Source: a virus. Taken from it: DNA of 43,641 nucleotides. The notes beneath the pieces are model-generated. The model was not told the origin of the DNA, did no database searches, and worked only from the letters and a program-made list of their open reading frames with translations. A program made the translations under genes and the position numbers. The stretch is from the IMG/VR virus record IMGVR_UViG_3300037493_007247, positions 1 through 43,641 of that record. One strand, written 5' to 3'. This document shows positions 2,486 to 41,139 of this stretch, one piece after another (within the stretch, counting starts at the first letter, position 1; the number at the start of each line of letters is the position of its first letter).

Positions 2486-3994
2486 TTAAAATTTCACCTT
2501 TAATGTTTTGTAAGGAAACTTTTGATCTTCATAAATTTGGATCCTGGCCTCACCGTGTTTATAGAGATAATTTTTCCACATTCTATCTCCATCATGCCAA
2601 CACATATCATCAACAAAATCAATAATGTTTAAGATTTGTTTTGAATAGTGTTTTCTAAGACCTCTTCCGATAGATTGACGTATGATTACCTCGGATTTAA
2701 AAGATTCTGTAAAAAATATGTTGTGTATGTTTTTGATTGATATACCGGTAGAGAAAGTACCATATGAGGCAACAATAATCACATTGTTGTTCTTTTCCAT
2801 TTTTTTCTTATATGATTCTCTAATCTGTGAATCAGTACCACCATCCACATAGTAAACCTCTTTGTCATCTAGTTGTCTTAAATCTTTATATAAAGATTCT
2901 CCGTGCTCAATTCTATAAAAAAGAACAAGCGAATTTTGTGTTGTTTTAGAGATTGTTTTAACAATAAAATCTTTGCGTGCTTTATTTTCAATAATAAAGT
3001 TTTGTTCCAATCCAAAGAGCTTCATTCTGTCTTCTGCGCGTTTAGATAAAAAACTAAACGCCGCCTTTTGTTCATCGGATGCATAATCCATTTGAATTAT
3101 AGAAACTTTGCACTGACTAATGTGGCCCTGCTCCTGTAAAAAGTTTGCGCTTACATTTGTGATAAGGGGACCCATAGCTGACATCAAAGTCAATCTATCA
3201 ACGGTGCCTTCTTTTGGAATAGTACCAGACAGACCAAATCGATAATCACAGTGCCAACACATATCCATAATGGTTTTAATGGAATTAGATTTTGCCTTAT
3301 GTGTCTCATCAACCATTACAACGTCAAACTGAGCAAAATAATCTGCCTCTTTTTTTACCAGTGATTGATAGGTTCCTACTACAATATTACTACTGGGTTT
3401 AATCTTTGCCCCAGAATAAATCTGTTGTACTTTAAGTTTGATTCTTTCTTTGTGATTATATGTATCAAAATCCTCAGTGGCTTGTAAAACAAGAGACACG
3501 TTTGGTACAATAAAAAGAATCTTTTTCTTTTCAAGTTTTTCTAATAGGTAAGAGATTACTAAGAAACTTATAAGAGTTTTTCCGGCTGATGTAGCAAGCT
3601 CTGCAAGACATCTTTTGTATCTCAGAATTTTATACGCGGCGTCAATTTGATAATCCCTAGGCTTAATCTCGGGGTGATCTTTAAAAAGATCCATTGCCCA
3701 CTCAGTAAACTCCTTTTCAGAGATAACTTGATCAAAAAGATCAAGGAGCCCTTTTATTTTAAACTCAAAACTAAATTCTTTACAGATATCAGAAACGGTT
3801 TTCCACAAACCAGAAGGTATCTTGTTACCTTTAACATAAGAAACGTTTCCGTCCCAAAGTTTCTTTTTAACCAATGGGTGAAATCTCCATCCATCAATCT
3901 TTTTGGTCAAAGAAATCTTTAGCTGCTCGTACTCTTCGTCAGTGCATTCTTCAATTATTATAAACTTCTTATCTTCTGAAATCTGTAGATCCAC
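2486..3994 (-). CDS. uvsW: UvsW-type DNA helicase (superfamily 2)
   Basis: A 502-residue SF2 helicase. Walker A is ATSAGKT at 134-140, the DExH box is DETH at 229-232, motif III is LSGT near 255-258, and motif VI is RQSIGRGLRKH at 439-449. The length and the N-terminal region before the RecA-like domains fit T4 UvsW, which unwinds branched DNA and R-loops and shifts the phage from origin-dependent to recombination-dependent replication. The start is GTG, two bases after the stop of uvsY. Operon order gp32, primase, small ORF, uvsY, uvsW groups single-strand binding, priming and recombination. No missing catalytic residue was seen. Family assignment is strong. Confidence 0.92.
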   Translation of the reverse strand: MDLQISEDKKFIIIEECTDEEYEQLKISLTKKIDGWRFHPLVKKKLWDGNVSYVKGNKIPSGLWKTVSDICKEFSFEFKIKGLLDLFDQVISEKEFTEWAMDLFKDHPEIKPRDYQIDAAYKILRYKRCLAELATSAGKTLISFLVISYLLEKLEKKKILFIVPNVSLVLQATEDFDTYNHKERIKLKVQQIYSGAKIKPSSNIVVGTYQSLVKKEADYFAQFDVVMVDETHKAKSNSIKTIMDMCWHCDYRFGLSGTIPKEGTVDRLTLMSAMGPLITNVSANFLQEQGHISQCKVSIIQMDYASDEQKAAFSFLSKRAEDRMKLFGLEQNFIIENKARKDFIVKTISKTTQNSLVLFYRIEHGESLYKDLRQLDDKEVYYVDGGTDSQIRESYKKKMEKNNNVIIVASYGTFSTGISIKNIHNIFFTESFKSEVIIRQSIGRGLRKHYSKQILNIIDFVDDMCWHDGDRMWKNYLYKHGEARIQIYEDQKFPYKTLKVKF

Positions 3995-4451: not shown

Positions 4452-4675
4452 CAAAACAAATTTTTCTTATTACTTATATCCTTTTTATTCAAATAGGTTA
4501 TTTTTTTCGGCTTTTTGGTATTTTTTACAGGTGTATCCATTTTGAATTTTAACCCATTATATTCTAATCCAATCTCATCAAATGGATCAATCAGAAGTTT
4601 GTATCTTTTACTTCTGTTTTCATTTTCTTCATAAAATTTGTCAAGCTCTTCCACAAAAAAATCTAAATCATACAT
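4451..4675 (-). CDS. Small protein of unknown function in the replication operon
   Basis: A 74-residue protein: acidic helical N-terminal half, very Lys/Asn-rich C-terminal tail. Its start overlaps the end of the primase gene by 8 nt and its TGA overlaps the uvsY ATG, so it is translationally embedded between two recognisable genes. I do not recognise the family. A basic tail could bind nucleic acid, but that is speculation. Confidence 0.6.
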   Translation of the reverse strand: MYDLDFFVEELDKFYEENENRSKRYKLLIDPFDEIGLEYNGLKFKMDTPVKNTKKPKKITYLNKKDISNKKNLF

Positions 4676-5741
4676 ATATTATATCTCTTGGATCGTTAGT
4701 AAAATATTGATTTACATGTTTGATGGCTGGGTTTTTAAGGTTATAACAAACCCCAACCAAATCATTCATATCTTTAATCTTTTGAGATTTGAGTTTAAAG
4801 TCTCCAAGAAACTTGGACCACATAAAAACATTTTTTCTCATCTTTAGCTTCTCAATCATTTTTTGTTTTCCTTTAATATCGTTATCAAAGAAGTATCTTA
4901 CCGTTGGAAGCTCATCAAAATTTAAAATGTTCTTTGCAACACCAGTAAGTGCAATAGAATTATGAACAAAGAAAGAATCTAAAGGCCCTTCGAAAACAGT
5001 AAAATCGACTGAAAGATTGACATGCAAAATACCAAAAAGCATTGATATTTTATTTAATCTATCCAGCTCTTCTTCGCTTTCAATTTCAAGCTCTTTACCA
5101 ATCATATCATACATCTTTTGCAAGTTGTAGCTTAAATATTTAGCAGAACGAGTATTGGTTAGATCTCGGGTTTGAAATCCCACCACTTTATCATTAGAGG
5201 TAAGATTAAAAATATAGAGCATCTTTTTTCGTGGATCATATGCAAACCTATCAAGGTTTTTTATCTGTAATCTACTTTTAAGATATGGATATGCTCTATG
5301 AGTATGCTCGTTAATAGTGTAAATATTTAGTTTTGCAAAAAGCTCATCTTTAGAAACTGCAAGAGAGTTTAAAACTCGAAAGAGTTCAAACTCTAGATTA
5401 TCCGCAGTTGCATGATTCTTTTTGTTTTCTTTGATGTAATCTATGATTTGAAATCTTTGATCACCTTCAAAGTTAGCACTAAAATCAGAAAGGAAGGAAT
5501 CTAAATCTTTATGTGTTGAACAGTTGTAACAATGGTAGTTCAACCCACTCCAATATAGATTACCTCTTTTCTTTCTGAGTGAAGAAGAAGAATCCCCACA
5601 ATACGGACAAGCAAAGTTGAGCCGCTGCAGGGATTCTCTTATAAACCGCTTTTCACGGTCTGAATGTACTTGATTTAAAACCGTTTGTACTTTCTGAGTT
5701 ATCTGAGATTTGAGATGTGGATTAACGAAGCTTTCGTTCAT
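4668..5741 (-). CDS. 61: DNA primase, zinc-finger plus TOPRIM (gp61-like)
   Basis: A 357-residue primase. The ATG at 5741 overlaps the TGA of gp32 (TGATG); a GTG one codon earlier is less likely. The N-terminal zinc finger has C45-x2-C48 and C71-x2-C74 (CPYCGD and CYNCS). The TOPRIM part shows the acidic motif FEGPLDS (E251, with D255 nearby) and the second motif FFDNDIK (D286, D288). Such enzymes make RNA primers for lagging-strand synthesis with the gp41 helicase, in complex with gp32. The size agrees with T4 gp61 (about 340 residues). There is no helicase domain, so a separate replicative helicase must be elsewhere in the genome. Confidence 0.88.
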   Translation of the reverse strand: MNESFVNPHLKSQITQKVQTVLNQVHSDREKRFIRESLQRLNFACPYCGDSSSSLRKKRGNLYWSGLNYHCYNCSTHKDLDSFLSDFSANFEGDQRFQIIDYIKENKKNHATADNLEFELFRVLNSLAVSKDELFAKLNIYTINEHTHRAYPYLKSRLQIKNLDRFAYDPRKKMLYIFNLTSNDKVVGFQTRDLTNTRSAKYLSYNLQKMYDMIGKELEIESEEELDRLNKISMLFGILHVNLSVDFTVFEGPLDSFFVHNSIALTGVAKNILNFDELPTVRYFFDNDIKGKQKMIEKLKMRKNVFMWSKFLGDFKLKSQKIKDMNDLVGVCYNLKNPAIKHVNQYFTNDPRDIIYV

Positions 5742-6619
5742 CACAAATCTAGACCCTCAAGAAAATCGTTTAAATCAGAGCTTTCGCTTTCTACTGATGT
5801 AGTCTTTTCTTTAACCTCTGCCTTAGGAGCTGAAGTGCTTGTTGAAGGAGAGGACACTACAGCTTTTGCAGAACCTGGTGATCTGTATTGTTGTAACAGA
5901 CCTTCAACTTTATTTCGGGTGTCATCGTCCCATTTCTTGTAATCAAATGCTGACAAATCAGGTGCTTCACTAAGAAGATCCATAACTTTCTGCTTATCTC
6001 CAGCGTTATTTTCGATCTCTTTGCCACTAACCGTCATTGCACTTGTCTTACCTTGGAACTTAGAAGAATCATATGCATTATATCCTCCCTGTTTAGTAAT
6101 TACCAACTCAAAGTTCTTTCCTTCAAAGATATCAAAAACCTGAGTAGGTGTATCAAACTGTGGATTTAATTCCTCATCAATCTTTTGTTTTACCTTATAA
6201 CCATACTTAAAGACTTTAACCTTGCCTTCCATGTCTGGATTATTAGGATCTTTAATGATTTGAAGCAAGGAGTAAAAAACTTCACGTCTCTTAAGATTTT
6301 CGCTCATCTTACGATCGACAGCTGAATCAGAGTTACGAAGTTTGAAAAACAAATCTTGTACTGGACAAGAGTCGCCTACAGTAGAAGGAGAGTCATAGTA
6401 AGAACCATTACCATTTCCATCTTCCAACCAATAGATGTACTTTCGAACAATTGATTTGCTTGGGTTTTTAGGGTTAGGAACGAAACGAACTAATGCTCGA
6501 TAGGTTCCATCTTTTCCCTGATCTGCGGTGGGTTTGTAAAGATCACTACCACCTGATTCCTTGGGTTTGTATGTTTCAATGTCACCAACACCCAAATTAA
6601 AAATATCGAATTCTGCCAT
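5741..6619 (-). CDS. 32: Single-stranded DNA-binding protein gp32
   Basis: A 292-residue protein with the gp32 layout: short basic N-terminal arm for cooperative binding, OB-fold core (about 35-225) with the typical DPNNPDMEGKVKVFKYG and YDSSKF elements, a low-complexity Ser/Pro/Thr linker (about 250-275), and an acidic C-terminal tip ending SDLNDFLEGLDL, used for contacts with other replication proteins. T4 gp32 binds zinc through three Cys and one His. Here only one cysteine of that region remains (C85, in SCPVQ), so the zinc site appears to be lost. The leader upstream has a hairpin and repeats that may mediate autogenous control. Confidence 0.9.
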   Translation of the reverse strand: MAEFDIFNLGVGDIETYKPKESGGSDLYKPTADQGKDGTYRALVRFVPNPKNPSKSIVRKYIYWLEDGNGNGSYYDSPSTVGDSCPVQDLFFKLRNSDSAVDRKMSENLKRREVFYSLLQIIKDPNNPDMEGKVKVFKYGYKVKQKIDEELNPQFDTPTQVFDIFEGKNFELVITKQGGYNAYDSSKFQGKTSAMTVSGKEIENNAGDKQKVMDLLSEAPDLSAFDYKKWDDDTRNKVEGLLQQYRSPGSAKAVVSSPSTSTSAPKAEVKEKTTSVESESSDLNDFLEGLDL

Positions 6620-6707: not shown

Positions 6708-7724
6708 TCATTTTTTAATTTCACCCTCATATTGATAGAGATACTGAACATTTACAGGTCGAGAATATTTTTCTGGTAACTTCATTGTGTAGTTCACAGC
6801 GACTTCTTGTTCATTATAAAGTGATTTACTTCTTAGTGGTATGTTTGGATTTTCCTCATACGCCCAATCCTTGTAACCCAGTTCTTCAAATCTTTTCTTT
6901 ATCGCTTCGTTATAATAATATGAGATGCTTCGTACACGTCTTTGAATATCTGATCTGGAGACGTTTTGAGTATTGTTTACATTCTCATTTGCATGCATAT
7001 ATTGGATATAACACAGTTTAGGAACGTGCACCATACGGGTACCCAGGAAAGTTCTTATGATCAATTCATAATCATCAGCAATGCTTAACCTTCTATTGTG
7101 GGCGCCGATTCTAAAATAAGTATCTCTTTCCCATGCTCTAAAGTGATTTGGCACACCAACTATGTGACGCATAGTTTTTGGATTGATTTTTTGTTGATCA
7201 CAAACATCCATTTCATATCCATTATAAATGTCCTTATAATAGTTACCATAGTTTAAGGCGAATCCCTGCTCATATTTTAAGCATTCACCTGTTTCTAAGA
7301 TTTCGGTGCAATCGGAGTATGAAAATCCTGCATCTGGAAACTGTCTAAAAGATTCCACCATAAGCTCCATTGCATAGTATGTGAGCTCATCATCATGATC
7401 CATTTCCACAAGATACTTACCATTACATAGTGTTGCTGCTCTATATTTCGATTCGCCTACAATACCACCGCTTTTTTTATGAAATGAGTATACTTGAACA
7501 CGTGGATCTTTGCTTGCAATCTCCTCGGCAATCTTAAGGGTTTTTCCTTTATCTGTTGAATCATCAACTATCACCCATTCCCAGTTTGTGTAGGTTTGCT
7601 GAGCAATTGAACGGTATGTTCTCCAAAGTTTTTGGCCCGTATTAAATGTAGGAGTGAACAAGCTAACCAATGGTTCCACTTTTAGATAATCATCATCAAA
7701 GTTTCTATTTAAGATATAGTACAT
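6708..7724 (-). CDS. Family 2 glycosyltransferase (GT-A fold), probably the C-terminal half of a split tandem enzyme
   Basis: A 338-residue protein by the first ATG. GT-A features: SLFTPTFNTG (21-30), the nucleotide-sugar motif VIVDDSTD (51-58), and the metal-binding DHDD at 109-112. It probably transfers a sugar from a nucleotide donor onto phage DNA, a phage protein or a host glycan; the acceptor cannot be seen. The frame stays open upstream of this ATG for 69 more codons back to the TAA of the preceding glycosyltransferase. The ATG at 7724 may therefore be an internal Met of a longer protein (see the entry for 7725-7934). There is no Shine-Dalgarno sequence before it. Confidence 0.8.
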   Translation of the reverse strand: MYYILNRNFDDDYLKVEPLVSLFTPTFNTGQKLWRTYRSIAQQTYTNWEWVIVDDSTDKGKTLKIAEEIASKDPRVQVYSFHKKSGGIVGESKYRAATLCNGKYLVEMDHDDELTYYAMELMVESFRQFPDAGFSYSDCTEILETGECLKYEQGFALNYGNYYKDIYNGYEMDVCDQQKINPKTMRHIVGVPNHFRAWERDTYFRIGAHNRRLSIADDYELIIRTFLGTRMVHVPKLCYIQYMHANENVNNTQNVSRSDIQRRVRSISYYYNEAIKKRFEELGYKDWAYEENPNIPLRSKSLYNEQEVAVNYTMKLPEKYSRPVNVQYLYQYEGEIKK

Positions 7725-7934
7725 TGACGAGTTATAGCTTGATTCACCGGCCTCAATATCAGATTTTTCACTGTTTACATTGATCCATCTTCTTCTAAAA
7801 TCAAATGGAAGTTTGTACAGGTTTGGAAACTTCTCAGGCGAGGTATCAAACGTTATAATTCCATCTGGATTTAGCTTTGCAATATCCTCTAAAACGGTGT
7901 TATCATCAAGCTTACAGACAAAATTAAGCTTATC
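7725..7934 (-). pseudogene. In-frame open linker between two glycosyltransferases (nonsense split or readthrough region)
   Basis: This 210-nt stretch has no stop in the frame shared by the upstream glycosyltransferase stop (TAA at 7937-7935) and the downstream ATG (7724). It translates to protein-like sequence, including KLDDNTVLEDIAKLNPDG and KLPFDFRRRWINV. It holds no ATG, GTG or TTG in that frame, so it can be translated only by passing the TAA. The simplest reading is that a bifunctional glycosyltransferase was split by one nonsense codon. Readthrough or a base-calling error are alternatives. Confidence 0.6.
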
Positions 7935-8645
7935 TTATTCGTAATCAGCCTGCTTAATTGATCTGAAATCTTTTGTTTCTCTACCATAAACCAGAATTTT
8001 AGGCAGAGAAACATAAACTACTTGTTTTTCAATAAAATTATAGTAACACAGAATCTTATCAATGAACAAAAACTTCTCTGGAGTTGATGCATAGATCTTT
8101 TCAATCATTAATCCATCTCCGGCATAATGCATAGGGTATCTTTCATCACCTAGCACAGAAACTGTGTGTACAAACTGAGCCTGATCAATTCCCTGATATT
8201 TTGTGTTTTCAGGTTTTGCTTCTCTAAACTGTAATCCTGTAAAATCTTTTCCTCCAACAAATTGATTGAAAACAACCACCTCTTTATCAGGGTTATCTTT
8301 GATAGCTTTAGTAAACTCAGCAAAGAAATCCACATGTAAAATGTTATCATCATCTAGTGCGTAAATCCAATCCGAAGGATTACTCAATTCAATAACTCTA
8401 TTCAATTGTGCCTTTCCTACAACATTAGTTGGATCATTCACAAAAATACCGTGAACCCAACTTTTAGTTTGAAAACTATTGATAATCTCACTTGGGATAC
8501 TTAGCAATGAATGTGTATCAAATGCTATAATCCATTCAAAATCGATATCTGACGTTTCTATCTTTTTAAGAGAATCTTCGATCGATTTTTCAATCTGCGC
8601 TAGATTCTCATAGCGCGTGCATGGGGTAACAATTTTTAATTTCAT
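7935..8645 (-). CDS. Glycosyltransferase-like protein (GT-A fold), probable N-terminal half of a tandem enzyme
   Basis: A 236-residue protein opening with the GT-A strand KLKIVTPCTR, with IYALDDDN (94-101) as the DxD-type metal site and a second conserved region GDGLMIEK near residue 178. Its ATG overlaps the TGA of the co-chaperonin gene (ATGA), indicating translational coupling. It ends at TAA, after which the same frame continues open into the next glycosyltransferase. It may modify a surface glycan, phage DNA or a virion protein; no acceptor is evident. Confidence 0.7.
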   Translation of the reverse strand: MKLKIVTPCTRYENLAQIEKSIEDSLKKIETSDIDFEWIIAFDTHSLLSIPSEIINSFQTKSWVHGIFVNDPTNVVGKAQLNRVIELSNPSDWIYALDDDNILHVDFFAEFTKAIKDNPDKEVVVFNQFVGGKDFTGLQFREAKPENTKYQGIDQAQFVHTVSVLGDERYPMHYAGDGLMIEKIYASTPEKFLFIDKILCYYNFIEKQVVYVSLPKILVYGRETKDFRSIKQADYE

Positions 8646-8986
8646 AACTCAACTGCTGTTATTCTTCTTGATTGTAAAACTAGATACTCTTGATCTTCAT
8701 ACTGCATAAAAACTCCTCCTACCCATTCAAAGTGAACTTTAGAACCGACTTTGACCTCTTCGGTTAGATAATCTTCTTCGGTGTCTGCTCCAATTGCCAC
8801 CACAGTTCCTGTATACGGAGGATCTGGCATGCTTGGAGCTTTATCTCTAATCTTATTGACTTTGTAAATGATGCCAGCTTCAGTGACACCTGGATCCTTA
8901 TCTTGAATAATAATGACTTTGCCTGGGGTTGTCTTTAACATGTTTCTTATATCTAGAGAAAAAACTTTGTTTCCAAATTGAAACAT
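8642..8986 (-). CDS. 31: Phage co-chaperonin (gp31/GroES-like)
   Basis: A 114-residue protein. After a short N-terminal extension (1-20) comes a GroES-type beta-barrel: KVIIIQDKDP, then a mobile-loop-like region (EAGIIYKVNKIRDKAPSMPD, 36-55), then GTVVAIG, VKVGSKVHFEW and a closing strand near the C-terminus. T4 gp31 replaces host GroES so that GroEL can fold the major capsid protein gp23; the same role is inferred here. Size agrees with gp31 (111 residues). It is followed, with an ATGA overlap, by the glycosyltransferases. Confidence 0.8.
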   Translation of the reverse strand: MFQFGNKVFSLDIRNMLKTTPGKVIIIQDKDPGVTEAGIIYKVNKIRDKAPSMPDPPYTGTVVAIGADTEEDYLTEEVKVGSKVHFEWVGGVFMQYEDQEYLVLQSRRITAVEL

Positions 8987-9030: not shown

Positions 9031-9687
9031 CTATATTACTTTCTTTAAGGCATTACAAATAAAGTAAGAATCCACTAGATCATCAATGGGCTTGAGAACC
9101 TTTTCATTCTTATCAATCAGGGAAGAGCTCTGAGCGGAACAAAACTTCCAAAAATCATTTTCCCTGAGAGAGACTTCTTGGGAGTCTAGAAAGAAAGAAA
9201 GCATCATGTTCTTGTTTGCATTTCCTTTACCTGCATTCTTTTTAATATAAGAAGGAGTCATAACTTTAAACTTATCCCCTGGTTTTAAATTCTTGTAAAT
9301 AGCGTATCTCAAAATAGTATTAAACATAATAAGATCTATAAAGCTATTTCCTTTTGATGCATAACTGAATCCTTCTAAACCGTAACAAACACTCTTGTTA
9401 TCAAAGTTAAACATATTTCCAATTAAACAGGACATGTCCTCTGCATCTTCAATTTTTTGGATCTGATCCTCCTCATAAATTTTGGAACCTTTATGACGCG
9501 AATACCTTTCTATTATAACTCCAGGTAAATCAGAGTACAGCCCCATTCCAGGAGGAAGAGGTTTGTTAGCTGCCCTTCCACCATCATTTACAAAAGAATA
9601 AAATTGATATGTTTCGTTATAAGTGTCAAAAATACAGACAGCGGGACTGTTAATTGAAAAGTCGATTCCGACTAAAAAGTCAAACAT
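9031..9687 (-). CDS. RuvC-like (RNase H-fold) nuclease, putative Holliday-junction resolvase
   Basis: A 218-residue protein with the spacing of acidic residues of the RuvC/RNase H-like fold: D9 in VGIDFSINSPAV, E105 in YGLEGFSYASKG, and an acidic C-terminal helix PIDDLVDSYF (D202, D203, D206). A conserved NAGKGNANK segment (151-159) precedes the last catalytic region. RuvC-like enzymes cut branched DNA during packaging and recombination; in T4 that role is played by the unrelated endonuclease VII (gp49). The ATG overlaps the TAA of the upstream cargo gene by 1 nt. The 45-nt gap after it, before the co-chaperonin ATG, shows no convincing signal. Confidence 0.65.
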   Translation of the reverse strand: MFDFLVGIDFSINSPAVCIFDTYNETYQFYSFVNDGGRAANKPLPPGMGLYSDLPGVIIERYSRHKGSKIYEEDQIQKIEDAEDMSCLIGNMFNFDNKSVCYGLEGFSYASKGNSFIDLIMFNTILRYAIYKNLKPGDKFKVMTPSYIKKNAGKGNANKNMMLSFFLDSQEVSLRENDFWKFCSAQSSSLIDKNEKVLKPIDDLVDSYFICNALKKVI

Positions 9688-10047: not shown

Positions 10048-10647
10048 TCAAATACTTTTTTTCATTGTGCTGTTAATAGCTGTTAAATCGTCTTTAAGAT
10101 TTTTTGTAGTGTACTTTCCTTTAGCAATTGTCTCCCATACCTTCTTAGCTTTGCTGTAATTAGCTCTAATCGCAGCACCTGCATCTTGCCAAAACTTATT
10201 TATTATTTTGCTTGATGTTTCATACTGTTCTAGAGCGGTATCAAATGGTGTACCGGTAATAGTCGAAGCCATTTCTTCAGGGCTATCGGCGTTTGTTACT
10301 AAATACTCGAGTGAACTTATCCAAGGATTTTTTGTTATGTCAAATCCAGCAACACCAGCTGCTCCATAGATCAACATTCTTCCGCCTACTATATCTAGAA
10401 GTTCTCTATTAGTAAGATTATAGTTACTACGCCTTGATACAAAATCAATTCCAGTTTTAGAGCCAACTGAGCTAGTAGCATTAGCCCAAGCTTCCCAGTG
10501 ATCTGAAGGTCTAGAGTTTTCCCAGTATCCATCACTTAGTTGACCCGTGATTTCTTCGTCCCACAGATTTTTTTGTGAAAGACTAGAAAAAACGATCTTG
10601 CCCTCATTTATGGCTTCAAAATTTTCAAACAGCTTAATATATTTCAT
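10048..10647 (-). CDS. Putative internal head (capsid cargo) protein
   Basis: A 199-residue protein starting MKYIKLFENF, with an ideal prohead-protease site A-I-N-E|G at residues 12-16. The rest is Trp- and Asn-rich with helical segments (for example 130-199) and has no motif I recognise. The TGA is 1 nt before the ATG of the glycine-zipper gene. Its first 24 coding bases are identical to those of the next upstream gene (ADP-ribosyltransferase-like). The tag strongly suggests packaging; the function once packaged is unknown. Confidence 0.55.
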   Translation of the reverse strand: MKYIKLFENFEAINEGKIVFSSLSQKNLWDEEITGQLSDGYWENSRPSDHWEAWANATSSVGSKTGIDFVSRRSNYNLTNRELLDIVGGRMLIYGAAGVAGFDITKNPWISSLEYLVTNADSPEEMASTITGTPFDTALEQYETSSKIINKFWQDAGAAIRANYSKAKKVWETIAKGKYTTKNLKDDLTAINSTMKKSI

Positions 10648-10648
10648 T
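10624..10648 (-). repeat. 25-nt exact direct repeat, copy A (cargo tag coding region)
   Basis: Identical to 11062-11086. It covers the ATG and the first eight codons (MKYIKLFE) of the 199-residue cargo gene plus one base upstream. Flanking sequence differs at once. A related, imperfect copy (about 20 of 23 bases) starts the gene at 1367. Confidence 0.9.
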
Positions 10649-10665
10649 ATGTTTTGTTGTTTTAA

Positions 10666-11085
10666 TTAATAAGGTGTGACTTTGACAATGGCGCTGTATG
10701 GAATAACACCCCTGTATTCTAATGTATCTCCTTCGTTGTTTTGTACGTTCTTATCTATAGATAGCTTTGTTTGATTTAATTTAGACGCATCAATATGTAG
10801 TACGATGATGTTGTCAATATAACTATCGGGTACCATGTCTGATGCCTCAGCATACGATCCAGCAACATCAATATCGGTAGCTAAGTAAACTAATCCCGGT
10901 TCGGAGTCTTCCCACGCTTTCTTGCTCTTAGTTGTATCTAATCCATCCCGCTTTATCTTAACCAGTAGTGGCTTATATGTTGCGTGATATAGAATGCTTG
11001 GAACTTTAGCCTCATTGATGAGATCTTCATTCACCAAATACATGGATTCGTTCACAAATTCTTCAAACAGCTTAATATATTTCAT
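10666..11085 (-). CDS. ADP-ribosyltransferase-like protein with capsid-targeting tag
   Basis: A 139-residue protein. The ATG at 11085 is chosen over an in-frame TTG at 11112, because that TTG is part of the promoter motif and the ATG gives the tag MKYIKLFEEF. A prohead-protease site L-I-N-E|A ends at E25. The mature part has an ADP-ribosyltransferase-like layout: SILYHATYKPLL (H34), GLVYLATDIDVAGSYA (Y67), and EYRGVIPYSAI with E123, consistent with an H-Y-E triad. T4 packages the ADP-ribosyltransferase Alt in its head and injects it to modify host RNA polymerase. This could be a much smaller counterpart, but the target and activity are inferred. A KptA-type RNA phosphotransferase-like fold is an alternative. 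Confidence 0.6.
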   Translation of the reverse strand: MKYIKLFEEFVNESMYLVNEDLINEAKVPSILYHATYKPLLVKIKRDGLDTTKSKKAWEDSEPGLVYLATDIDVAGSYAEASDMVPDSYIDNIIVLHIDASKLNQTKLSIDKNVQNNEGDTLEYRGVIPYSAIVKVTPY

Positions 11086-11086
11086 T
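11062..11086 (-). repeat. 25-nt exact direct repeat, copy B (cargo tag coding region)
   Basis: Identical to 10624-10648; it covers the ATG and first eight codons of the ADP-ribosyltransferase-like gene. The two copies are 438 nt apart on the same strand. Confidence 0.9.
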
Positions 11087-11096
11087 GCTGGAGGTA

Positions 11097-11112
11097 TTTT
11101 TTTATATATCAA
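11097..11112 (-). promoter_or_regulatory. Late-promoter-like motif upstream of the cargo gene cluster
   Basis: The minus strand reads TTGATATATAAAAAAA, ending 11 nt before the ATG of the ADP-ribosyltransferase-like gene. It would drive the three cargo genes and possibly the RuvC-like gene, separating them from the tail operon upstream. Confidence 0.6.
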
Positions 11113-26979: not shown

Positions 26980-29124
26980 TTATCTTAAAATATCATACAC
27001 AAAGGTGTAAGTAGTGGCATCGACGCAAGTTACTTCGATAATAGGTATAGTTGATAGTTCACTATTTACGATTGTTGTAACATTAACTCCATAAACTCCA
27101 AATCCTCTAGAGTTTTGTGAATCTGTAACAATACTAATATCATATCCACCAAAATCAGTAACTGTTGGGAAAACTATTCTTACACACTGCCCGGTTTTAA
27201 ACCTATTTAAACTATCATCAATCCTAAATACAATGTTGCTTATTGCTGGAATAGGAGTGCCATCAGTCTCAGTTTCTGTGTAAACTCTGAGCATGTTTGT
27301 AAACTGTGCAAGATAGAAGTTTACCTGGTTTGTGCTTGAGTTGAGATCAATTGGACTAGAAGAACTTATTTGAATGCCTGCATTATTTGTAATTACTGGT
27401 AATGCATATTGTTGTTGAATATTCTCAACTACGATTCTATTTGGAGTGTTTCTGTTTAACAACATTCCACTTCCAGCTGCTAAAACATCAGTATTGTATT
27501 GAACATTAATCGATGTTCTTCCATTCATTAAAGCTTGAAGATCGTCAGAATTTTTTGCAATAAGATCAAGAAGAGCTCTAGAGCTATTTAAAGCCACTTG
27601 GCTGTTTGTGATTCTAGTATTAAGAAGATCGATCTCTGTTTGCAGTTCTGAAATAGAATCAAGAGCAAAAGAACGAGTAGTTAAACTATCGATTTGAGCC
27701 TGTAAAATTCTAATCTGTGTTGCCTGTCTTGTAAACTGATTTGTTGCAGTTTGTAATTCAGCTACGGCATCACTAAATAACCCCATTGAAAATGTGTTAT
27801 ACTCATTTACAATAGTATTAACACCGCCTGCTACAAGAGATGCATCGAATCTAAGATTAAGCTTAAACCCATATGAGTTACCATTTTCTTTTGTAAGGGT
27901 ATTTGGTTTAAACTTAGGTAATCTTTGAATGTATCCACCATTTGGAGTGTCTGTAATATTATCAGTGATTAAAACACCATACAAGTTAGTGGCCTTTGTT
28001 GAAAGGTCTGATGGATCAAAAATATCATAATAAACTAAAACCGCATTAAACTTAAAGTTTGTAGCCCCTGGTGTTGAATTATATTGCGCGATAGTCGAAA
28101 TAGATGGATCATTTGTAATTCCATAATAGCTCGAAGGATCAAAATCAAGTGCAATGCCATCTAATCTGCTTCTTCTATATGATACTACCTTACCACTTGG
28201 TGTTAAACCATAGTCCTGATTAAATTTTGTAATGTCATCATTTGCAGTATCTGTAAAAGAAGTAGGTTCAGTAAAGTAAGAGTTAAACTCAGTGGCAGGT
28301 GTTGTTTGACCCATCCAGTTTGCATCGGAATCAGTGTAACCACCTGATCCGGCTCCTGAAAGTGCATCATCATAATCATAAAATGCTCTAATATCTAGGC
28401 CTTCGGGTTGTACCGTTGATGAATCTCTACCGTTGATAAATTCAGTTTCACCTTCTATTCTTAAACCCGGTGAGTAGTTGTTATCACTAAGTGTTTTGTA
28501 TAAAACAACAGGAGTTTTTCCTGCTTCAGTAGGAACATAGATGTATAATTCAGTGTATGCATCTCCACCCTTGCCTACATTATTTACAATATCAATATCT
28601 CCAATATACTGGACAACCTGATCATACTGTACAGCTCCCGTTTCAGCTTGATCCTCTTCTACGAAACGAGGTGTTCCTGCTAGAGTCAGTGCTTGGCTTT
28701 TTTCAGTGCTCGTAGCTGCTCTAAATCTTAAAGCTCCGGTTTCTTTTAACCATTTAAAAAATATCCTTTCAGAAATAGATTGATTTGTAGTTTGATCGTA
28801 ATCAGGATCATTTAAAATTAAGTTCTCAAGATTAAGCGGATAGTTTTGTAATGACTGAGCAAAGTTTACATTGTCATCTGCTGAAAACGCCTGATTTTGA
28901 ATAACACCATCAATCGTATTGAACTGAATATAGTTATTAAAATTGCTAAAAGTATCAACATCTAGGGCTTGCATATTAGGTATGTTCAGAAGCACAAACT
29001 TTGAAAATACGAAACGTAAATTATCGTTGTTTAAACTTCTTGACAAATCCCTAGCGGCAGAGGAAAACGTGTATAGTGTTCCCCCCTGCAGCTGTGGAGT
29101 TCTAATTAGTGGAGCTGCTGACAT
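26980..29124 (-). CDS. Baseplate/tail structural protein with central coiled coil
   Basis: A 714-residue protein: beta-rich N-terminal half; a heptad-rich helical segment at about 450-525 (ELQTATNQFTRQATQIRILQ and following); C-terminal beta domain ending in TYTFVYDILR. Its place directly after the gp7-like wedge protein and the small fibre matches where T4 encodes gp8, gp9 and gp10, but no clear homology to those was seen. No enzyme motif. Confidence 0.5.
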   Translation of the reverse strand: MSAAPLIRTPQLQGGTLYTFSSAARDLSRSLNNDNLRFVFSKFVLLNIPNMQALDVDTFSNFNNYIQFNTIDGVIQNQAFSADDNVNFAQSLQNYPLNLENLILNDPDYDQTTNQSISERIFFKWLKETGALRFRAATSTEKSQALTLAGTPRFVEEDQAETGAVQYDQVVQYIGDIDIVNNVGKGGDAYTELYIYVPTEAGKTPVVLYKTLSDNNYSPGLRIEGETEFINGRDSSTVQPEGLDIRAFYDYDDALSGAGSGGYTDSDANWMGQTTPATEFNSYFTEPTSFTDTANDDITKFNQDYGLTPSGKVVSYRRSRLDGIALDFDPSSYYGITNDPSISTIAQYNSTPGATNFKFNAVLVYYDIFDPSDLSTKATNLYGVLITDNITDTPNGGYIQRLPKFKPNTLTKENGNSYGFKLNLRFDASLVAGGVNTIVNEYNTFSMGLFSDAVAELQTATNQFTRQATQIRILQAQIDSLTTRSFALDSISELQTEIDLLNTRITNSQVALNSSRALLDLIAKNSDDLQALMNGRTSINVQYNTDVLAAGSGMLLNRNTPNRIVVENIQQQYALPVITNNAGIQISSSSPIDLNSSTNQVNFYLAQFTNMLRVYTETETDGTPIPAISNIVFRIDDSLNRFKTGQCVRIVFPTVTDFGGYDISIVTDSQNSRGFGVYGVNVTTIVNSELSTIPIIEVTCVDATTYTFVYDILR

Positions 29125-32856: not shown

Positions 32857-33116
32857 TAGTCGATCTCTTTGTAATTTTTAGGAACGGTGTAGTTAAAATA
32901 GATTCTCACGTACTTAACAAGTTCAATATGTTGAACCATGTAGTTGTTTAATTTTTCAAGGAATCCTGCTACTTTAGAATTTCTAAAAAGATAATTAGAA
33001 ACAGTCTTTTGCATAAGAGTCTGAGTATAGTCATAGCCCAGATGCTTCAAATCATTTTGAGTTGAATTTGAAACATCATAAAGACTTACCTGATTATTAT
33101 GTGGATCTATAGCCAT
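32856..33116 (-). CDS. Small conserved-looking protein of the baseplate operon
   Basis: An 86-residue, mostly helical protein with aromatic residues (YLFRNSKVAGFLEKLNNYM, about 43-61). It lies exactly between the gp6- and gp7-like genes, its ATG overlapping the gp6-like TAA. It is probably a small wedge component or assembly factor. No family recognised. Confidence 0.55.
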   Translation of the reverse strand: MAIDPHNNQVSLYDVSNSTQNDLKHLGYDYTQTLMQKTVSNYLFRNSKVAGFLEKLNNYMVQHIELVKYVRIYFNYTVPKNYKEID

Positions 33117-34945
33117 TATGAAACTGTACCAGAACTATTTTTAATTATTGGAGAATAGACTTTGTTTTGTTGTATTTTTTTCAAAGAATTGAACTTATTC
33201 TGTTCTAAATCGTTATATAGATTTTTATTTACAAAAGCTTTAAATATAATGTTTAACGAACTTACAGTGTTCTCAGATGGAATCTCTTCATAATAATTTT
33301 TGTTTCTATCATACCATCCTCCTCTTATCAACACTAGATCGTCTTGTTCAAGTTTAATATCCCCAAAGTCATCTAATCCAATCAGTGGATCTTGACCCGG
33401 TTCGATAGTTATCTGCTTTCTTTCAATAATTATTTCTTGATTTGTTATTGGATCCTTTTGTTTGACAGGGGCAAAGTAGTACCCATTTCTAATTGCCTCT
33501 TCATTTTCCTGAGAGACAAAGAATACATTCACAGAATCAATACCTTCGATATTTTCAATTATACTAATAAGATCAGAACGTGGAATTGAAGTTTTTCTTT
33601 TTACATTTAAGAAATATGAACTTAGTGCACTGCGAATCTCAGTGGACAAAACTCCTTTGTCAAATCCTTCAATATACTTAAGAACAATATTAATTGCATA
33701 TTTTTTGATGATTGGATTTACAATTTCTACTTCGGAAGTAACGAGTTGTTGACCGCTTTCGTTAAGAAGATTCAAAACTCTTTGTTTTTCTTCGTCAGTG
33801 AGTACAAACTCGTTTGCTGGAATATTGAAATAGTCAATATCAGTAGTGATTTTTCTATTTACATCTGGAAGAAGAAAAAGATAAACAACATTATCGTCAT
33901 CTATATTATTATCGTTCTTTGTGTTATATGCATCAATATGAGAAAAATACGCATATTTTTTTAAAAAGTAAATGTAATTGTTTGGGTTTGCCAAAACAAA
34001 TGATTTGCTAGCATAAGGTGCTATAAGTCTTGTAAACTCTGGATCCTCATTGTTTGCACCAAAAATAGGTTTGCTTACCAGTTTAATGCTTAACACTTCA
34101 TTTAAGTTAATCTCACTGCCTAATTGATCAACTCCTTCCGTTGTAAACGTGAATGTGATATTATTTGCAGTATCAAGATTACCAGAAAGACCTGCAGTTT
34201 GTACATATTGAATTGTAATCTTTGAGCCTGCAACTGGTATAGCTCCAAAATTCCCAGTTCCAAAATAAATGTCGAGTCCTCCGTTAATACCTGTCTTAAC
34301 CAAGCAGCCCGGTTCATTGTTTCCAAGATCATACAATGAGTTTTCTACTGGATAATCAACCCCATTTACAGTAACCTTAATTCTTTGATCATCCGTTGGA
34401 TCAAGAGTATTAATTGAAAAGCTTTGTAACGGAAATCCAGTTCCGGTAAAATCTTGAGTTTGAACGAGCCCTTGAACTAATGTAACCTGCTGTGGAGCAA
34501 GAGAAGTTTTGTCAATTGCTATAAATTCCTCACTTCCAAAATCTAAGAAATAGTTTAAACCGTTGGTCTCACAGTTTAGTGTACAAAAGTTAGGAATTCG
34601 TAAAGTATTACCCGAGATTTGAGAAGCAGCGCCGGGAGCAACATTTAATTGTAATGAACCAAAAGCAGAAACACCTCTCGATGGGTTGTGTCCTGTTAAT
34701 CTTGACAATCCAAAAACAGACTGAGCGTTTCTTGCTCTACTGATATTTAATTCAGTAATTGCGGCTTCAATATAATAGAAAATAAGCTCACTAATATTTG
34801 AAACAACAGACAAAATCTGTCCAAAGGGGGAAGCTGGAGTAAAAAGATCAGAAGATTGTTGATATTTCTCTGAGAGATATACAAAAGCGTCATTGTAAAG
34901 CTGTTGAGCTCTTACCCTGTTTTTAAATAAAAAAGAATCTGCCAT
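33116..34945 (-). CDS. 6: Baseplate wedge protein gp6-like (baseplate J family)
   Basis: A 609-residue protein with the gp6/J N-terminal pattern: PASPFGQILSVVSN, YYIEAAITELNISRARN, then GLSRLTGHNPSRGVSAFGSL. The middle is beta-rich, and the C-terminal third has an alpha/beta domain with YAINIVLKYIEGFDKG and SRSDLI-like spacing (RSDLISIIENIEGIDSV). gp6 forms the ring that closes the T4 baseplate (660 residues in T4). It follows the gp25-like gene with a 15-nt gap. Strong call by pattern and order. Confidence 0.75.
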   Translation of the reverse strand: MADSFLFKNRVRAQQLYNDAFVYLSEKYQQSSDLFTPASPFGQILSVVSNISELIFYYIEAAITELNISRARNAQSVFGLSRLTGHNPSRGVSAFGSLQLNVAPGAASQISGNTLRIPNFCTLNCETNGLNYFLDFGSEEFIAIDKTSLAPQQVTLVQGLVQTQDFTGTGFPLQSFSINTLDPTDDQRIKVTVNGVDYPVENSLYDLGNNEPGCLVKTGINGGLDIYFGTGNFGAIPVAGSKITIQYVQTAGLSGNLDTANNITFTFTTEGVDQLGSEINLNEVLSIKLVSKPIFGANNEDPEFTRLIAPYASKSFVLANPNNYIYFLKKYAYFSHIDAYNTKNDNNIDDDNVVYLFLLPDVNRKITTDIDYFNIPANEFVLTDEEKQRVLNLLNESGQQLVTSEVEIVNPIIKKYAINIVLKYIEGFDKGVLSTEIRSALSSYFLNVKRKTSIPRSDLISIIENIEGIDSVNVFFVSQENEEAIRNGYYFAPVKQKDPITNQEIIIERKQITIEPGQDPLIGLDDFGDIKLEQDDLVLIRGGWYDRNKNYYEEIPSENTVSSLNIIFKAFVNKNLYNDLEQNKFNSLKKIQQNKVYSPIIKNSSGTVS

Positions 34946-36166: not shown

Positions 36167-37426
36167 TCATTTTATCTTTTCATACTCAAGAACTCTCGTA
36201 GTGTTCGAGATTCTTGATATATTATTTATTTTTCCGTTCTCAAAAAAGCCTCTTTCCATTTCACCTATCATGATTCCACTTCTTCCCGTGAAATGACAAT
36301 CAATTAACTTACTTGTTCCATTTACATAAGAATCTAAAAGATAAGAAGATGTTGCGGTTGTTTGAGAGAATAGATTTGATTTACTGATATAACAGTTATC
36401 TAGATTAGATTCAAAAACATCGCAATCAACAATCATTCCGCCAACCTCGCTCTCAAGAATATCAATACCTTGTAGAAAGAAAGAGTTTTTAAGATTTCCT
36501 TCTTTAATTTGAAATTTGCTTTGATCTGAATCATAGTTTATGTAACCTTCAGTCATACTTGAATCTCTAATTATCTCTAACAATCTGGTTCTGAGTGTAG
36601 CGAAAAAACTGTGAACACGGGAATCGTGAGTATTGAGATCGATAGTAAAATTGATTTTTGGAAAAGATTCTTTAAAGACTGCCAAGTTACGTAGAGATTG
36701 AACAAGATGACCACGTCTGTCCTGTATTTTTTTCAATCTCTCCTTCTCATCGATGCTTAAATTTGGATCTTGAATACTCGTAACCAGTGCATCAATGAAT
36801 TCATCTACACCTTCAAATATTTTTGACTTTTTGGTTTGATAATCTTTACCACCAAAATATTTAAGAACTAAATAGCTGGAGAAAGGACCTCCAAACTCCA
36901 CAGCAAAACTCTTTTTTATTGGAGAAACATTAACCAGGGGATCGAAATCCAAAGACAACAATTTTTTTATAGGTCTAGAAAAAACATGATTTTGACGAGG
37001 GAAATCCTTTAAAACTTTATCCTCGTTAAAAAGCATTATAAGCTTTAAAAAATTCATCTTTCGAAGATCTAAAAAGCTTCCCTTTTGGGCACCTATAATA
37101 CAGTATAAATCCGAATTTTGATTTGTTTCTCCATTCTCTGTAATCCAGCCTAAGATCTTATTTAAAAGAGATTTTGACCCAAGAAAAGGTAGCATCGGAG
37201 TTGACAGCCTATAAGAGTTACCTCCTCTTTCAAATTTCTTTTCAAGTTCAAATCTTCCAAATGGAGAAGTAGTGGTAATTGATGAAGTGTTTTGAAAAAC
37301 TTGATCCCCAAGAAAAGAGGACAAAAGAGATCTGGTTTTATCAAAACCCTCTTTTGTGTTAAAATCTATAATAAAAGCTAATCGTAAGTCAGAAAAAATC
37401 TGCGATCGATCCTGTAAGGATAACAT
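36167..37426 (-). CDS. Amidoligase-like domain fused to pentapeptide/beta-helix-like C-terminus
   Basis: A 419-residue protein. Residues about 10-160 resemble phage amidoligase-family proteins: STPMLPFLGSKSLLNKILGWI, then NGETNQ, then a line of hydrophobic helices with FPRQNHVFSRPI. However, the CGLH-type active-site motif expected after the TN pair is replaced by SDLYCIIG, so activity is doubtful. Residues about 320-400 have regularly spaced Asp/Asn/Cys/Ser turns (VDCDVFESNLDNCYISKSNL), like a right-handed beta-helix or pentapeptide repeat. A late-promoter motif lies 10 nt upstream. Its place among baseplate genes suggests a virion protein that has lost or reshaped an old enzyme fold. Confidence 0.35.
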   Translation of the reverse strand: MLSLQDRSQIFSDLRLAFIIDFNTKEGFDKTRSLLSSFLGDQVFQNTSSITTTSPFGRFELEKKFERGGNSYRLSTPMLPFLGSKSLLNKILGWITENGETNQNSDLYCIIGAQKGSFLDLRKMNFLKLIMLFNEDKVLKDFPRQNHVFSRPIKKLLSLDFDPLVNVSPIKKSFAVEFGGPFSSYLVLKYFGGKDYQTKKSKIFEGVDEFIDALVTSIQDPNLSIDEKERLKKIQDRRGHLVQSLRNLAVFKESFPKINFTIDLNTHDSRVHSFFATLRTRLLEIIRDSSMTEGYINYDSDQSKFQIKEGNLKNSFFLQGIDILESEVGGMIVDCDVFESNLDNCYISKSNLFSQTTATSSYLLDSYVNGTSKLIDCHFTGRSGIMIGEMERGFFENGKINNISRISNTTRVLEYEKIK

Positions 37427-37435
37427 TTACTTTTT

Positions 37436-37449
37436 CTTTTATATATCAA
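37436..37449 (-). promoter_or_regulatory. Late-promoter-like motif upstream of the amidoligase-like gene
   Basis: The minus strand reads TTGATATATAAAAG, ending 9 nt before the ATG at 37426 and overlapping the last codons of the S1-like gene. Confidence 0.6.
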
Positions 37450-38555
37450 GGTAAAGAATAAACTATCTTTCTGTTTACAGTATCAATTTTTAAAATCCTA
37501 ACCTTTACATCTTCTCCAACGTTTAATACTGTTCCCTTTAAATCATTTGTGTGTAAAAGACCAGCAAGACCTTTCTCCAATTCTACAAATGCTCCATACT
37601 TTACAATTTTTGTAACTGTACCATTTACAATAGAGCTAGGGGTATACTTTTCATCAGCGTTTTTCCATGGATCGTGTGATGGCCCTTTTTGACTAAGAAT
37701 TATTTTGTTTTCGTGAATAATCTGTTTCACAAAAAACTCAATCTTATCCCCAGGTCGAATTAGCTTGTTGTTAAAATGAGTTAAACTTTCATCAAGCTCA
37801 TCAGCTGGAATCATACCAGTCAAACACTCATTGAATTCGGCAAACACTCCAAATTGAGTAGTGCCAGTTACAAATCCTTCTATCTTTTTCTCAAGATTCT
37901 GTGACAAATCCTCAATTGTTTGAGGGATTTGTGTTTTAAGATATTCTCTGTGAGAAACTACGACGGTTCCTTTTTCTTTGGAGTAATTAATTGGAACAAC
38001 AACTATCTCTTTTCCTAACATCGATTCAAAATTCCAAAGCTTATTCACTCCGGCTAAAGATCCTGGCATAAATGTTTCAACCTCATCGACACTTACCATA
38101 TAACCACCTTGAATGAGCTCTTTTACAACCCCATAAAATCCAAGAGATTTCCCAATAGAATCCATAAGCTCATTTTTCTTTTCTCGTTGAAGAACGTCTC
38201 CAAAACTTGCTTGAATATGATCTGCTTTCCTAAGCAGTTCAACCTTAACTATTTGACCAGCTCTTAGATAATCTCTGTATTTTTCTTTTTCTTTGTGAAG
38301 CGGAATAAATGCAGTTTCAGCACCTAGATCAATAACAGCTTCATTACTATTATTTATATACTGAACTTTTGCTTCTACAATATCACCCGAGTTGTAATTT
38401 GGTGATATGGGTTGACCTTCATAAAGTGATAGAAGATCTGCAACATATGATTCTTTACTTAATATCTTTGTTCTCTTTGGAATTTCTAACTCTAAAACCT
38501 TTGATTCAAATGGATCTTCTTGGTTAGGATAGAGTGTTATTTTTTGATTAGGCAT
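37446..38555 (-). CDS. Four-domain S1 RNA-binding protein (ribosomal protein S1-like)
   Basis: A 369-residue protein made of four S1 OB-fold repeats: about 56-118 (GDIVEAKVQYIN), 138-203 (YGVVKELIQGGYMVSV, with the VVSHREYL end typical of S1), 223-290 (EGFVTGTTQFGVFAEF, IILSQKG), and 307-369 (NGTVTKIVKYGAFVEL, GLAGLLHTNDL). No nuclease or PNPase domain accompanies them. Ribosomal protein S1 recruits mRNA to the 30S subunit; a phage copy could bring phage mRNAs with A/U-rich leaders to ribosomes. It is encoded inside the tail operon and has its own promoter-like motif upstream. Domain assignment is strong, the role is inferred. Confidence 0.85.
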   Translation of the reverse strand: MPNQKITLYPNQEDPFESKVLELEIPKRTKILSKESYVADLLSLYEGQPISPNYNSGDIVEAKVQYINNSNEAVIDLGAETAFIPLHKEKEKYRDYLRAGQIVKVELLRKADHIQASFGDVLQREKKNELMDSIGKSLGFYGVVKELIQGGYMVSVDEVETFMPGSLAGVNKLWNFESMLGKEIVVVPINYSKEKGTVVVSHREYLKTQIPQTIEDLSQNLEKKIEGFVTGTTQFGVFAEFNECLTGMIPADELDESLTHFNNKLIRPGDKIEFFVKQIIHENKIILSQKGPSHDPWKNADEKYTPSSIVNGTVTKIVKYGAFVELEKGLAGLLHTNDLKGTVLNVGEDVKVRILKIDTVNRKIVYSLP

Positions 38556-38887: not shown

Positions 38888-39682
38888 TTATTTTGTTTTA
38901 ACTTGTTTTTTACTTAAGTGTTGAAGCGGTGTCATTGGAACTATAGGGGGAGATGTAGGTGCACCTAGATTGGCGATATGAGTGTGTTGATTAAAAAATT
39001 GTAAAAAAGAATCCCCTAATACTAGTTTTTCTGAAGCTCCACTTCCCAGCTCAATTGATGTTGAGTGATCAATAATTACGTTTTCACATTTAATTATAGC
39101 ATCTTTACAGGTAATCTGTGTATTGTTAACACTAATTATTTCAATACTATTGTCTGGCTTAATGTTAATTATTGACGATCCTTGTGTAGTTGCATAATCA
39201 ATAACGAGACCCTTTTCCTCAGTGAAAAACAGCTTAATAGATTCTCCACTTCTACCATTGTTTCCGTCTTTATCCAGGCCAAATGCTGTATCATATATAA
39301 GAACGTGTGAGTTTTGATATGAATTGCCTATTTCAGTTTTAACCTCATCACTTGGATGAACTGAGCCCAGATAAATCGGTGTATAGATGTTTCCATTGTC
39401 AAAATAGAGAGACACGACACTTCCTAATTTTGGAACTGAAAATTGACCACTTCCACTTAAACTGCCAGATGCTGATGAGAAATTTGGATAAGCCCATGGT
39501 AGATGCTCATCCGGAATGAGGTAATCACTGTTTGGATCATCGGGATTTACTCGAGCGTCCAGTTTTCCAAAGATCCTAATTCTACATCTTCCCTCTTGGT
39601 TTGGATCTTCAACATCAACTATTTTACCCAACCAAAACGTACCTACTAAATTATCATCAGTTATGTTTCCAAGTTGTGGCAT
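38888..39682 (-). CDS. 5: Baseplate central spike protein, gp5-like without lysozyme domain
   Basis: A 264-residue protein. Residues about 10-110 form an OB-fold typical of gp5/VgrG/gpV spikes (VGTFWLGKIVDVEDPNQEGR, PKLGSVVSLYFDNGN, YLGSVHP). Residues about 150-230 are repetitive beta-strands (INIKPDNSIEIISVNN, CKDAIIKCENVIID), forming the trimeric beta-helix needle, followed by NQHTHIANLGAP with the HxH seen at the iron-bound tip of gpV-type spikes. T4 gp5 carries a lysozyme domain between OB-fold and needle; here it is missing. The ATG overlaps the previous stop by 1 nt. Confidence 0.75.
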   Translation of the reverse strand: MPQLGNITDDNLVGTFWLGKIVDVEDPNQEGRCRIRIFGKLDARVNPDDPNSDYLIPDEHLPWAYPNFSSASGSLSGSGQFSVPKLGSVVSLYFDNGNIYTPIYLGSVHPSDEVKTEIGNSYQNSHVLIYDTAFGLDKDGNNGRSGESIKLFFTEEKGLVIDYATTQGSSIINIKPDNSIEIISVNNTQITCKDAIIKCENVIIDHSTSIELGSGASEKLVLGDSFLQFFNQHTHIANLGAPTSPPIVPMTPLQHLSKKQVKTK

Positions 39683-41139
39683 TATCTAAAAACGTTTGAT
39701 GGTGTTAGTGGCCCTGGCGGTAACGCATCTCCAAGCACATTAGATGGAGTTAATGGGGCCGGCTCGAACGGGTTTTCACCTGCAAAAACATTCTCTTCTC
39801 CTATTTCAACTGATGGTGAATTAAAACCTGAAAAGATGTTATCTTCACCCAGTGGAGAGGTTGAACCCGTCAAATCATCAAATGCTGACAAATTACCCGG
39901 AAGATTTGGTATACTTAATGTAGGAGTATCAAACGCTCGTGTAGGATTAATCGAAGTATTTAACTGAGGAGTTATAAATCCAACGGTTTGCCCTGAATCA
40001 AGAGAGCCCTGTGCTATGTTTGCGGCGGTGAAAGTTTGTGCTATTGATCTTCTAAGTTCAGCATCTGCCTCTGGATTACTTACGGGAACTCTTCCTAAAG
40101 TTAAAGTGGAATTTTTTAGCAATCTTCCAGCTTGTCTTAGAATTAGGTCAGGGGCTTCATCCTTAAGTTTTTGAATTAAGCTGCTTGGTCCATCTCCTCC
40201 TGTTGATAAAAGGTTTGTTCCAAGTGATGAGCGCGTCACATCAACAAGGCTTCCTTCTAGCGCAAGAATTTCAGTTTCAATCTCAAAATCATTATATGTA
40301 AAAGAAACTGTCTGTTTAGCCTGCTCAGTTGGAGTGCTGGTTAAACTTTCATACAAAGTTTTTGAAGCCTCAGGTAACCACTCACACTCTTTAAACCTAT
40401 AAATTACTGTTGAAATGTTGTTGTTTACAAATTCTCCGGCAGTTAGATTTGCACTTCCACCGGCAACAGCTTGAACTGCAGATATCGCATTTAAAGTTTT
40501 TCTAAAATTTCGAATTTCTTGTATGTAGATATCAACGTCAAAATATCTTAAGTTTATCGGAACAATAGTCCTTCTGTGCTTCATATCATACATCGCTAAC
40601 CTGTATAGGGTCATCAATGCGGTCGATTTGAAATCAACAGATTCAAGCATTGAGATAGAAATAGTTGCGTCATCGCCTCCAATGAAAGGATCTCCGTTCA
40701 TTGCACCTATAGATTTTTCCCATGCAGTATCAATACCTGTCACCCCAGTAAAGATGTAATGACTGTTATTTTGAATATCATACAAAGTTTTTGCAAATTG
40801 AGCCAAATATTGTGATCTGTTTGGAGCAACTTTACTAAGTAGAGAAAATGCATTATCTTGAACAGAAGTATTTGAAATATTTCCTAAAACCCCAGCACTT
40901 AATGCATTTGCAAACAAAGGACTTTGGTAAAAATTAAACTGTAATCTAAAACTTACATATGTAGGATCATCAAACCTTGTCCACGCTGACTTTTTTGAAG
41001 TGCTAAACCCTCCAGTTGCGATAGAATTTGCCCTTCTAAAGTTATCAACATCTCTATCCAAATTGGCAAGCCCTGCCCTGCGAAGAATATCTGCTCCTCC
41101 GGTGACCAAAGCCTCTTGTGCAGGTGTAGTAAATGCCAT
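39682..41139 (-). CDS. Putative baseplate hub/tube-initiator protein
   Basis: A 485-residue protein. The middle (about 120-300) has the look of a tail-tube-like fold: YFDVDIYIQEIRNFRKTLNA, then VIYRFKECEWLPEAS, then VSFTYNDFEIETE. In T4 the tube initiators gp48 and gp54 are built this way, and the position beside the spike and hub genes fits. The C-terminal 130 residues are Pro/Ser/Thr/Asn-rich with repeated PLTPSNV and ENxFxG elements (residues 435-485), probably disordered. Confidence 0.5.
   Translation of the reverse strand: MAFTTPAQEALVTGGADILRRAGLANLDRDVDNFRRANSIATGGFSTSKKSAWTRFDDPTYVSFRLQFNFYQSPLFANALSAGVLGNISNTSVQDNAFSLLSKVAPNRSQYLAQFAKTLYDIQNNSHYIFTGVTGIDTAWEKSIGAMNGDPFIGGDDATISISMLESVDFKSTALMTLYRLAMYDMKHRRTIVPINLRYFDVDIYIQEIRNFRKTLNAISAVQAVAGGSANLTAGEFVNNNISTVIYRFKECEWLPEASKTLYESLTSTPTEQAKQTVSFTYNDFEIETEILALEGSLVDVTRSSLGTNLLSTGGDGPSSLIQKLKDEAPDLILRQAGRLLKNSTLTLGRVPVSNPEADAELRRSIAQTFTAANIAQGSLDSGQTVGFITPQLNTSINPTRAFDTPTLSIPNLPGNLSAFDDLTGSTSPLGEDNIFSGFNSPSVEIGEENVFAGENPFEPAPLTPSNVLGDALPPGPLTPSNVFR

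Follow-up and report, generated by a model that had tools for sequence, protein, structure and literature searches.

One TAA codon interrupts the frame of a phage glycosyltransferase

A glycosyltransferase gene on the minus strand of a phage-like sequence is interrupted by one in-frame TAA codon. The account that we favour, with a probability of about 0.6, is that this is a real and recent nonsense codon in a two-domain enzyme formerly encoded by a single ORF. The stop is read from the assembled sequence, and the biology behind the interrupted gene is probably ordinary. The whole stretch of DNA analysed, hereafter the window, comprises all 43,641 bases of a virus record without a larger genome behind it; its gene content points to a T4-like tailed phage as its origin. 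The parts of the interrupted frame are as follows.

7935..8645, minus strand: GT1, a GT-A-like domain (residues ~1-205) followed by a middle-domain stub, 236 codons plus TAA; assigned from the ORF list, a weak PF00535 match and a structural model
7935..7937, minus strand: in-frame TAA, codon 237 of the putative ancestral frame; a sense codon in 90/90 distinct fused relatives
7725..7934, minus strand: 70-codon open stretch 3′ of the TAA, 61% identical to the relative L002
6708..7724, minus strand: GT2, second GT-A-type domain, 338-codon ORF from ATG 7724 to TGA; PF00535
7725..8003, minus strand: small predicted middle domain (residues ~215-307), which we read as Rossmann-like; AlphaFold2 model

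The first ORF (8645 to 7935) encodes 236 amino acids and terminates with the TAA at 7937-7935. Beyond it, the same frame continues from 7934 to 7725 for 70 sense codons devoid of ATG, GTG and TTG, CTG, ATT, ATC and ATA being present. The ATG at 7724 then starts a 338-amino-acid ORF that ends with a TGA at 6708, which brings the open frame 3′ of the TAA to 408 codons. The sequence-only reading of this region had described an open frame without a start codon between the TAA and ATG 7724; this is correct for the three ordinary start codons, but the length is 70 codons and not the 69 given there. With the base composition of the window, the probability of at least 69 open codons is about 0.004. 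However, another stop of the window, at 41154, likewise precedes 66 open codons, so that openness by itself is modest evidence for an interrupted gene. Three more stops precede long open frames, and there the next ORF starts 2-6 codons on. A chance open frame was rejected on other grounds, since 117 alignments of relatives' ORFs pass straight across the TAA at 7937. At this place, gene callers would list two separate glycosyltransferases instead of the one enzyme typical of the family.

The two halves form one open frame in relatives

To collect relatives, viral contigs were scanned with two GT2 peptide patterns, which gave 465 relatives, 80 of which were fetched. Overall, searches with 125, 465 and 491 candidates each contributed their best 80 loci, and a further one with 4 candidates contributed all 4; the set is not a random sample. 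The pool searched in the final tally comprised 305 loci, including 22 bacterial loci and a further 44 loci. A GT2 match was found at 260 loci of this pool and a GT1 match at 187; the tally of fusions was restricted to loci with a GT1 match at E 1e-6, GT2-only loci being left out. GT1, linker and GT2 lay in a single open frame at 185 of the 187 GT1-bearing loci. In 183 of these fusions the frame was still open beyond the GT2 match, and in the other 2 the contig end was reached. Because the sample is not random and several contigs occur in it repeatedly, distinct proteins are a better count than loci. Collapsing identical and contained sequences merged the 185 loci into 90 distinct proteins; all 90, and 62/62 clusters at 90% identity, have a sense codon where the window has the TAA. 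An earlier tally, made before further loci were chosen by GT1, was based on translated searches: at 109/109 loci where both halves share a frame, they form one uninterrupted ORF.

The closest relatives, L002 and L003, carry a 640-amino-acid ORF flanked, as in the window, by GroES-like and gp32-like genes. They are 66.5% identical to the window in GT1 and about 77% identical from the linker onward, with GT2 at about 80%. As they are 99.9% identical to each other across their overlap, they count as one witness. Across the fused relatives, identity to the window GT1 ranges from 24 to 67%. In the window, GT1 and GT2 are adjacent and in the same order, strand and frame as in the fused family, and we read its gene as a broken member of that family by descent, not an intact one. 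The sequence-only proposal that one ancestral protein, some 640 residues long, was hit by a nonsense codon is supported by 185 fused loci of 187. The full-length homologues for which it suggested a search, which have sense in place of the TAA, do exist, in the 640-residue ORF of L002 and L003 and in all 90 distinct proteins. Two separate genes with an unconserved linker, which it named as the finding that would speak against fusion, were not seen in the close family; GT1-alone and GT2-alone homologues occur in other phages.

The two exceptions among the 187 loci are L230, where the frame changes before GT2, and L280, where GT1 stands alone. At L230:1270-3065, GT1 and the middle domain form a 306-amino-acid ORF; GT2 lies downstream in a different frame, its ATG overlapping the TGA of that ORF. 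This break is either a frameshift (or an error) or a translationally coupled split. At L280:427-1044, a 205-amino-acid GT1 homologue has its stop directly after the GT1 domain; by our reading of the sequence, the gene that follows is glutaredoxin-like.

Records outside this set yielded little. A protein search of annotated phage records with GT1 gave no match at E 1e-5, and a nucleotide search of phage records gave short matches only, in 4 records. In the part of the literature consulted, nothing was noticed on the GT1-middle-GT2 gene family or on its split, which is not proof of absence. As a by-product, the searches brought out a widespread phage protein family with two glycosyltransferase domains and an uncharacterised middle domain.

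The stop falls within a predicted middle domain

In order to place the stop within the protein, we examined an AlphaFold2 model built from a 21-row alignment, made of the window protein and 20 of the 23 distinct proteins kept from a first set of 32 loci with both domains. The model (mean pLDDT 85.5, pTM 0.65) resolves three parts, GT1 and GT2 with a small middle domain between them. The sequence-only reading had placed GT-A domains on both sides of the stop. For GT2 this is supported by the PF00535 profile (69.7-70.2 bits, cut-off 23.3). With 18.7 bits, GT1 remains below the cut-off, and it is called GT-A-like here from the model and from whole-chain fold matches to proteins with two GT-A domains.

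The predicted middle domain has strands at residues 216-220, 241-245, 262-265 and 287-289, the later of which are separated by helices. Its pLDDT, averaged per ten residues, is 83-90 in 241-300 and only 71-82 in 211-240, which makes the first strand less certain. The TAA, at residue 237, lies between the first and the second strand, and the Glu just ahead of it is nearly invariant (72/73 relatives). On this model, the break is inside a domain, a point that the earlier reading had missed, together with the scope left for a sequence error.

Stand-alone homologues suggest where the protein would divide naturally. Three of them consist of GT2 with the middle domain (L029, L034 and L036), and their inferred N-termini, taken as the first ATG, lie 27-28 residues upstream of the position of the TAA. 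The stand-alone GT1 of L280 terminates near residue 205 of the window numbering. From these starts and this end, a natural division would lie at about 205-210 and not at 237. Two natural genes were rejected as an explanation on the same comparison.

The interrupted gene is without clear decay

We then compared the state of the gene on either side of the stop. When amino-acid changes were placed on the branches leading to the window and to L002, the counts were 21 vs 31 in GT1, 3 vs 5 in the stub, 10 vs 9 in the linker and 25 vs 25 in GT2. For the region 3′ of the stop, this makes 35 changes derived in the window and 34 derived in L002, showing no excess on the window branch. dN/dS was not used, because against the four relatives compared most segments have synonymous sites at or close to saturation. 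Among columns present in at least 55 of 73 relatives and conserved in the family (≥95%), the window keeps 112/117. Six intact relatives treated in the same way keep 113-117 of 117-119, so that the window is narrowly the lowest of the seven; four of its five departures are common to L002. By domain, 21/22 conserved positions are kept in GT1 and 83/87 in GT2. A long-dead pseudogene was rejected, since neither a raised number of changes nor a loss of conserved positions is seen.

A single lesion without clear decay would mean that the stop arose recently, that it is not real, or that the parts of the gene are still in use. Under the favoured account of a recent nonsense codon, the GT1-middle-GT2 gene would have been one ORF until recently and would now carry one nonsense codon after residue 236. 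Translation would terminate at the TAA, yielding a whole GT1 domain to which a short middle-domain stub is attached. The GT2 part would be made little or not at all, as the next ordinary start, ATG 7724, is 70 codons downstream. The missing ribosome-binding site at this ATG says little, since by our reading many window starts have no clear one either. The bifunctional enzyme would thereby be lost or reduced to GT1, as happens with dispensable accessory phage genes. A sequence error, or continued production of the downstream part, would likewise account for the lack of decay; both are considered below.

Sequence error, functional split and readthrough

The most serious competitor of a real nonsense codon, possible though clearly less probable, is an error of base call or consensus in the metagenomic assembly, the mixing of co-occurring strains into one codon included; the phage would then carry an intact fusion. 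The lack of other clear damage in the gene, and the sense codon at this column in every distinct relative, speak for such an error as they do for a recent stop. The window is moreover a virus record of the IMG/VR kind, and no near-identical record was found to confirm the base. A scan of viral contigs with a degenerate linker pattern gave 0 close strains, and near-identical records may be absent from the searched set. On the other hand, the contig does not have the look of an error-rich one. When the ORFs of the window were compared with those of 227 fetched loci, the sole in-gene stop was that at 7937. Five alignments touch one other stop, which lies two codons upstream of the GT1 start. This comparison covers 21 of the 35 ORFs of the window, each with at least one relative, sometimes just one and often over partial length, and no split gene was found among them. 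These results argue against a poor assembly, and one wrong base would still be compatible with them.

A functional fission appears unlikely. Here GT1 would end at residue 236 and GT2 would restart at ATG 7724, giving separate or associated subunits. The conserved positions retained in both catalytic domains agree with this, and so does the occurrence elsewhere of GT1 alone (L280, 205 aa) and of GT2 with the middle domain alone (L029, L034 and L036). However, the break within the predicted middle domain is unlike the ends of these stand-alone homologues, and a gap of 70 codons separates the stop from the ATG. Nor is residue 308, encoded by this ATG, a start in the family: it is Met in 57/73 relatives and another residue in 16. 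In L230 another member of the fused family is broken, just before GT2, but its middle domain is whole and the break may itself be a frameshift error. That the fused glycosyltransferase is now splitting into a two-subunit enzyme by restart at the internal Met, with L230 as an independent case, seems to us quite improbable. If the split were functional, the window would offer a case of gene fission in progress.

The sequence-only reading had also offered stop readthrough as an alternative, and this fared worst. Programmed or tolerated readthrough, or decoding of the TAA as sense, would yield the full-length protein, in keeping with the 408 conserved codons that remain open past the stop. It is nevertheless highly improbable. 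As the stop occurs in 0/90 distinct relatives, the TAA is not a conserved recoding signal. The same reading was right that TAA serves as a normal stop elsewhere: it terminates 22 of the 35 minus-strand ORFs examined, that of GT1 included, and the one at 7937-7935 is the only in-gene TAA seen. A change of genetic code was rejected on this basis, and as one in-gene stop was seen in the 21 of 35 ORFs that could be compared, the pattern of a reassigned stop is absent from them. The RNA downstream of the TAA folds no better than shuffled sequences (z -0.94 and -0.31), and no tRNA gene was found in the 43.6-kb window, the part of the phage genome that was covered. In the accessible part of PMC5289835, UAA is described as the least read-through stop; that part contains nothing on UAA followed by G.

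Likely activity of the intact enzyme

Chondroitin polymerase K4CP of E. coli K4 and heparosan synthase 2 carry two GT-A domains per chain, and polysaccharide polymerases of the K4CP type transfer sugars in alternation. K4CP (PDB 2z86/2z87) and heparosan synthase 2 (8vh8) were the best PDB matches of the window protein by fold and by profile, with the profile match confined to GT2. The superposition is poor, with TM scores of 0.29-0.32 of the query (K4CP being the best at 0.32), an rmsd of about 21 and 12-18% identity. On these models, the likeness is one of architecture and not of family membership, two glycosyltransferase domains being predicted in the window protein.

Matches to PHROG families were weak. 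The commonest were to GtrB-like O-antigen conversion glycosyltransferases, for 18/21 members; in the window, the matches to phrog_22739 and phrog_841 (best 1e-8) span about 100 residues of GT2 and leave GT1 and the middle domain uncovered. Much closer in organisation are the GT1-middle-GT2 fusions of uncultured phages in IMG/VR, mostly of about 600-640 amino acids. They share domain order, frame and conserved glycosyltransferase positions with the window and are uninterrupted, whereas the window differs by the stop at codon 237. Pelagimyophage glycosyltransferases were proposed, in the portion of PMC7029224 available, to modify the O-chain of the host. We infer that the intact enzyme would transfer two sugars one after the other, probably building a short sugar chain on a structure of the host surface or of the phage.

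Gene neighbourhood

The following genes of the window were identified.

2486-3994: helicase
4668-5744: primase
5741-6619: gp32-like single-strand binding protein
8642-8986: GroES-like protein
9031-9687: RuvC-like protein
33116-34945: baseplate wedge protein

L002 and L003 resemble the window in having GroES-like, RuvC-like, gp32-like and primase genes as neighbours. At window positions 8642-8645, the last bases of the GroES-like gene and the first of GT1 overlap in an ATGA, and the same gene pair likewise overlaps by four bases in L002 and L003. Two window ORFs, 10048-10647 and 10666-11112, sit between two genes that are adjacent in L002; from this comparison, the two-gene block (10048-11112) would be either a gain in the window lineage or a loss in the L002 lineage.

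Four large ORFs of the window (39682-41139, 37446-38555, 36167-37426 and 26980-29124) had no PHROG match at E 0.001. A scan with a 494-amino-acid window protein gave no confirmed relative. Relatives of the ORF at 26980-29124 are encoded in 44 viral loci.
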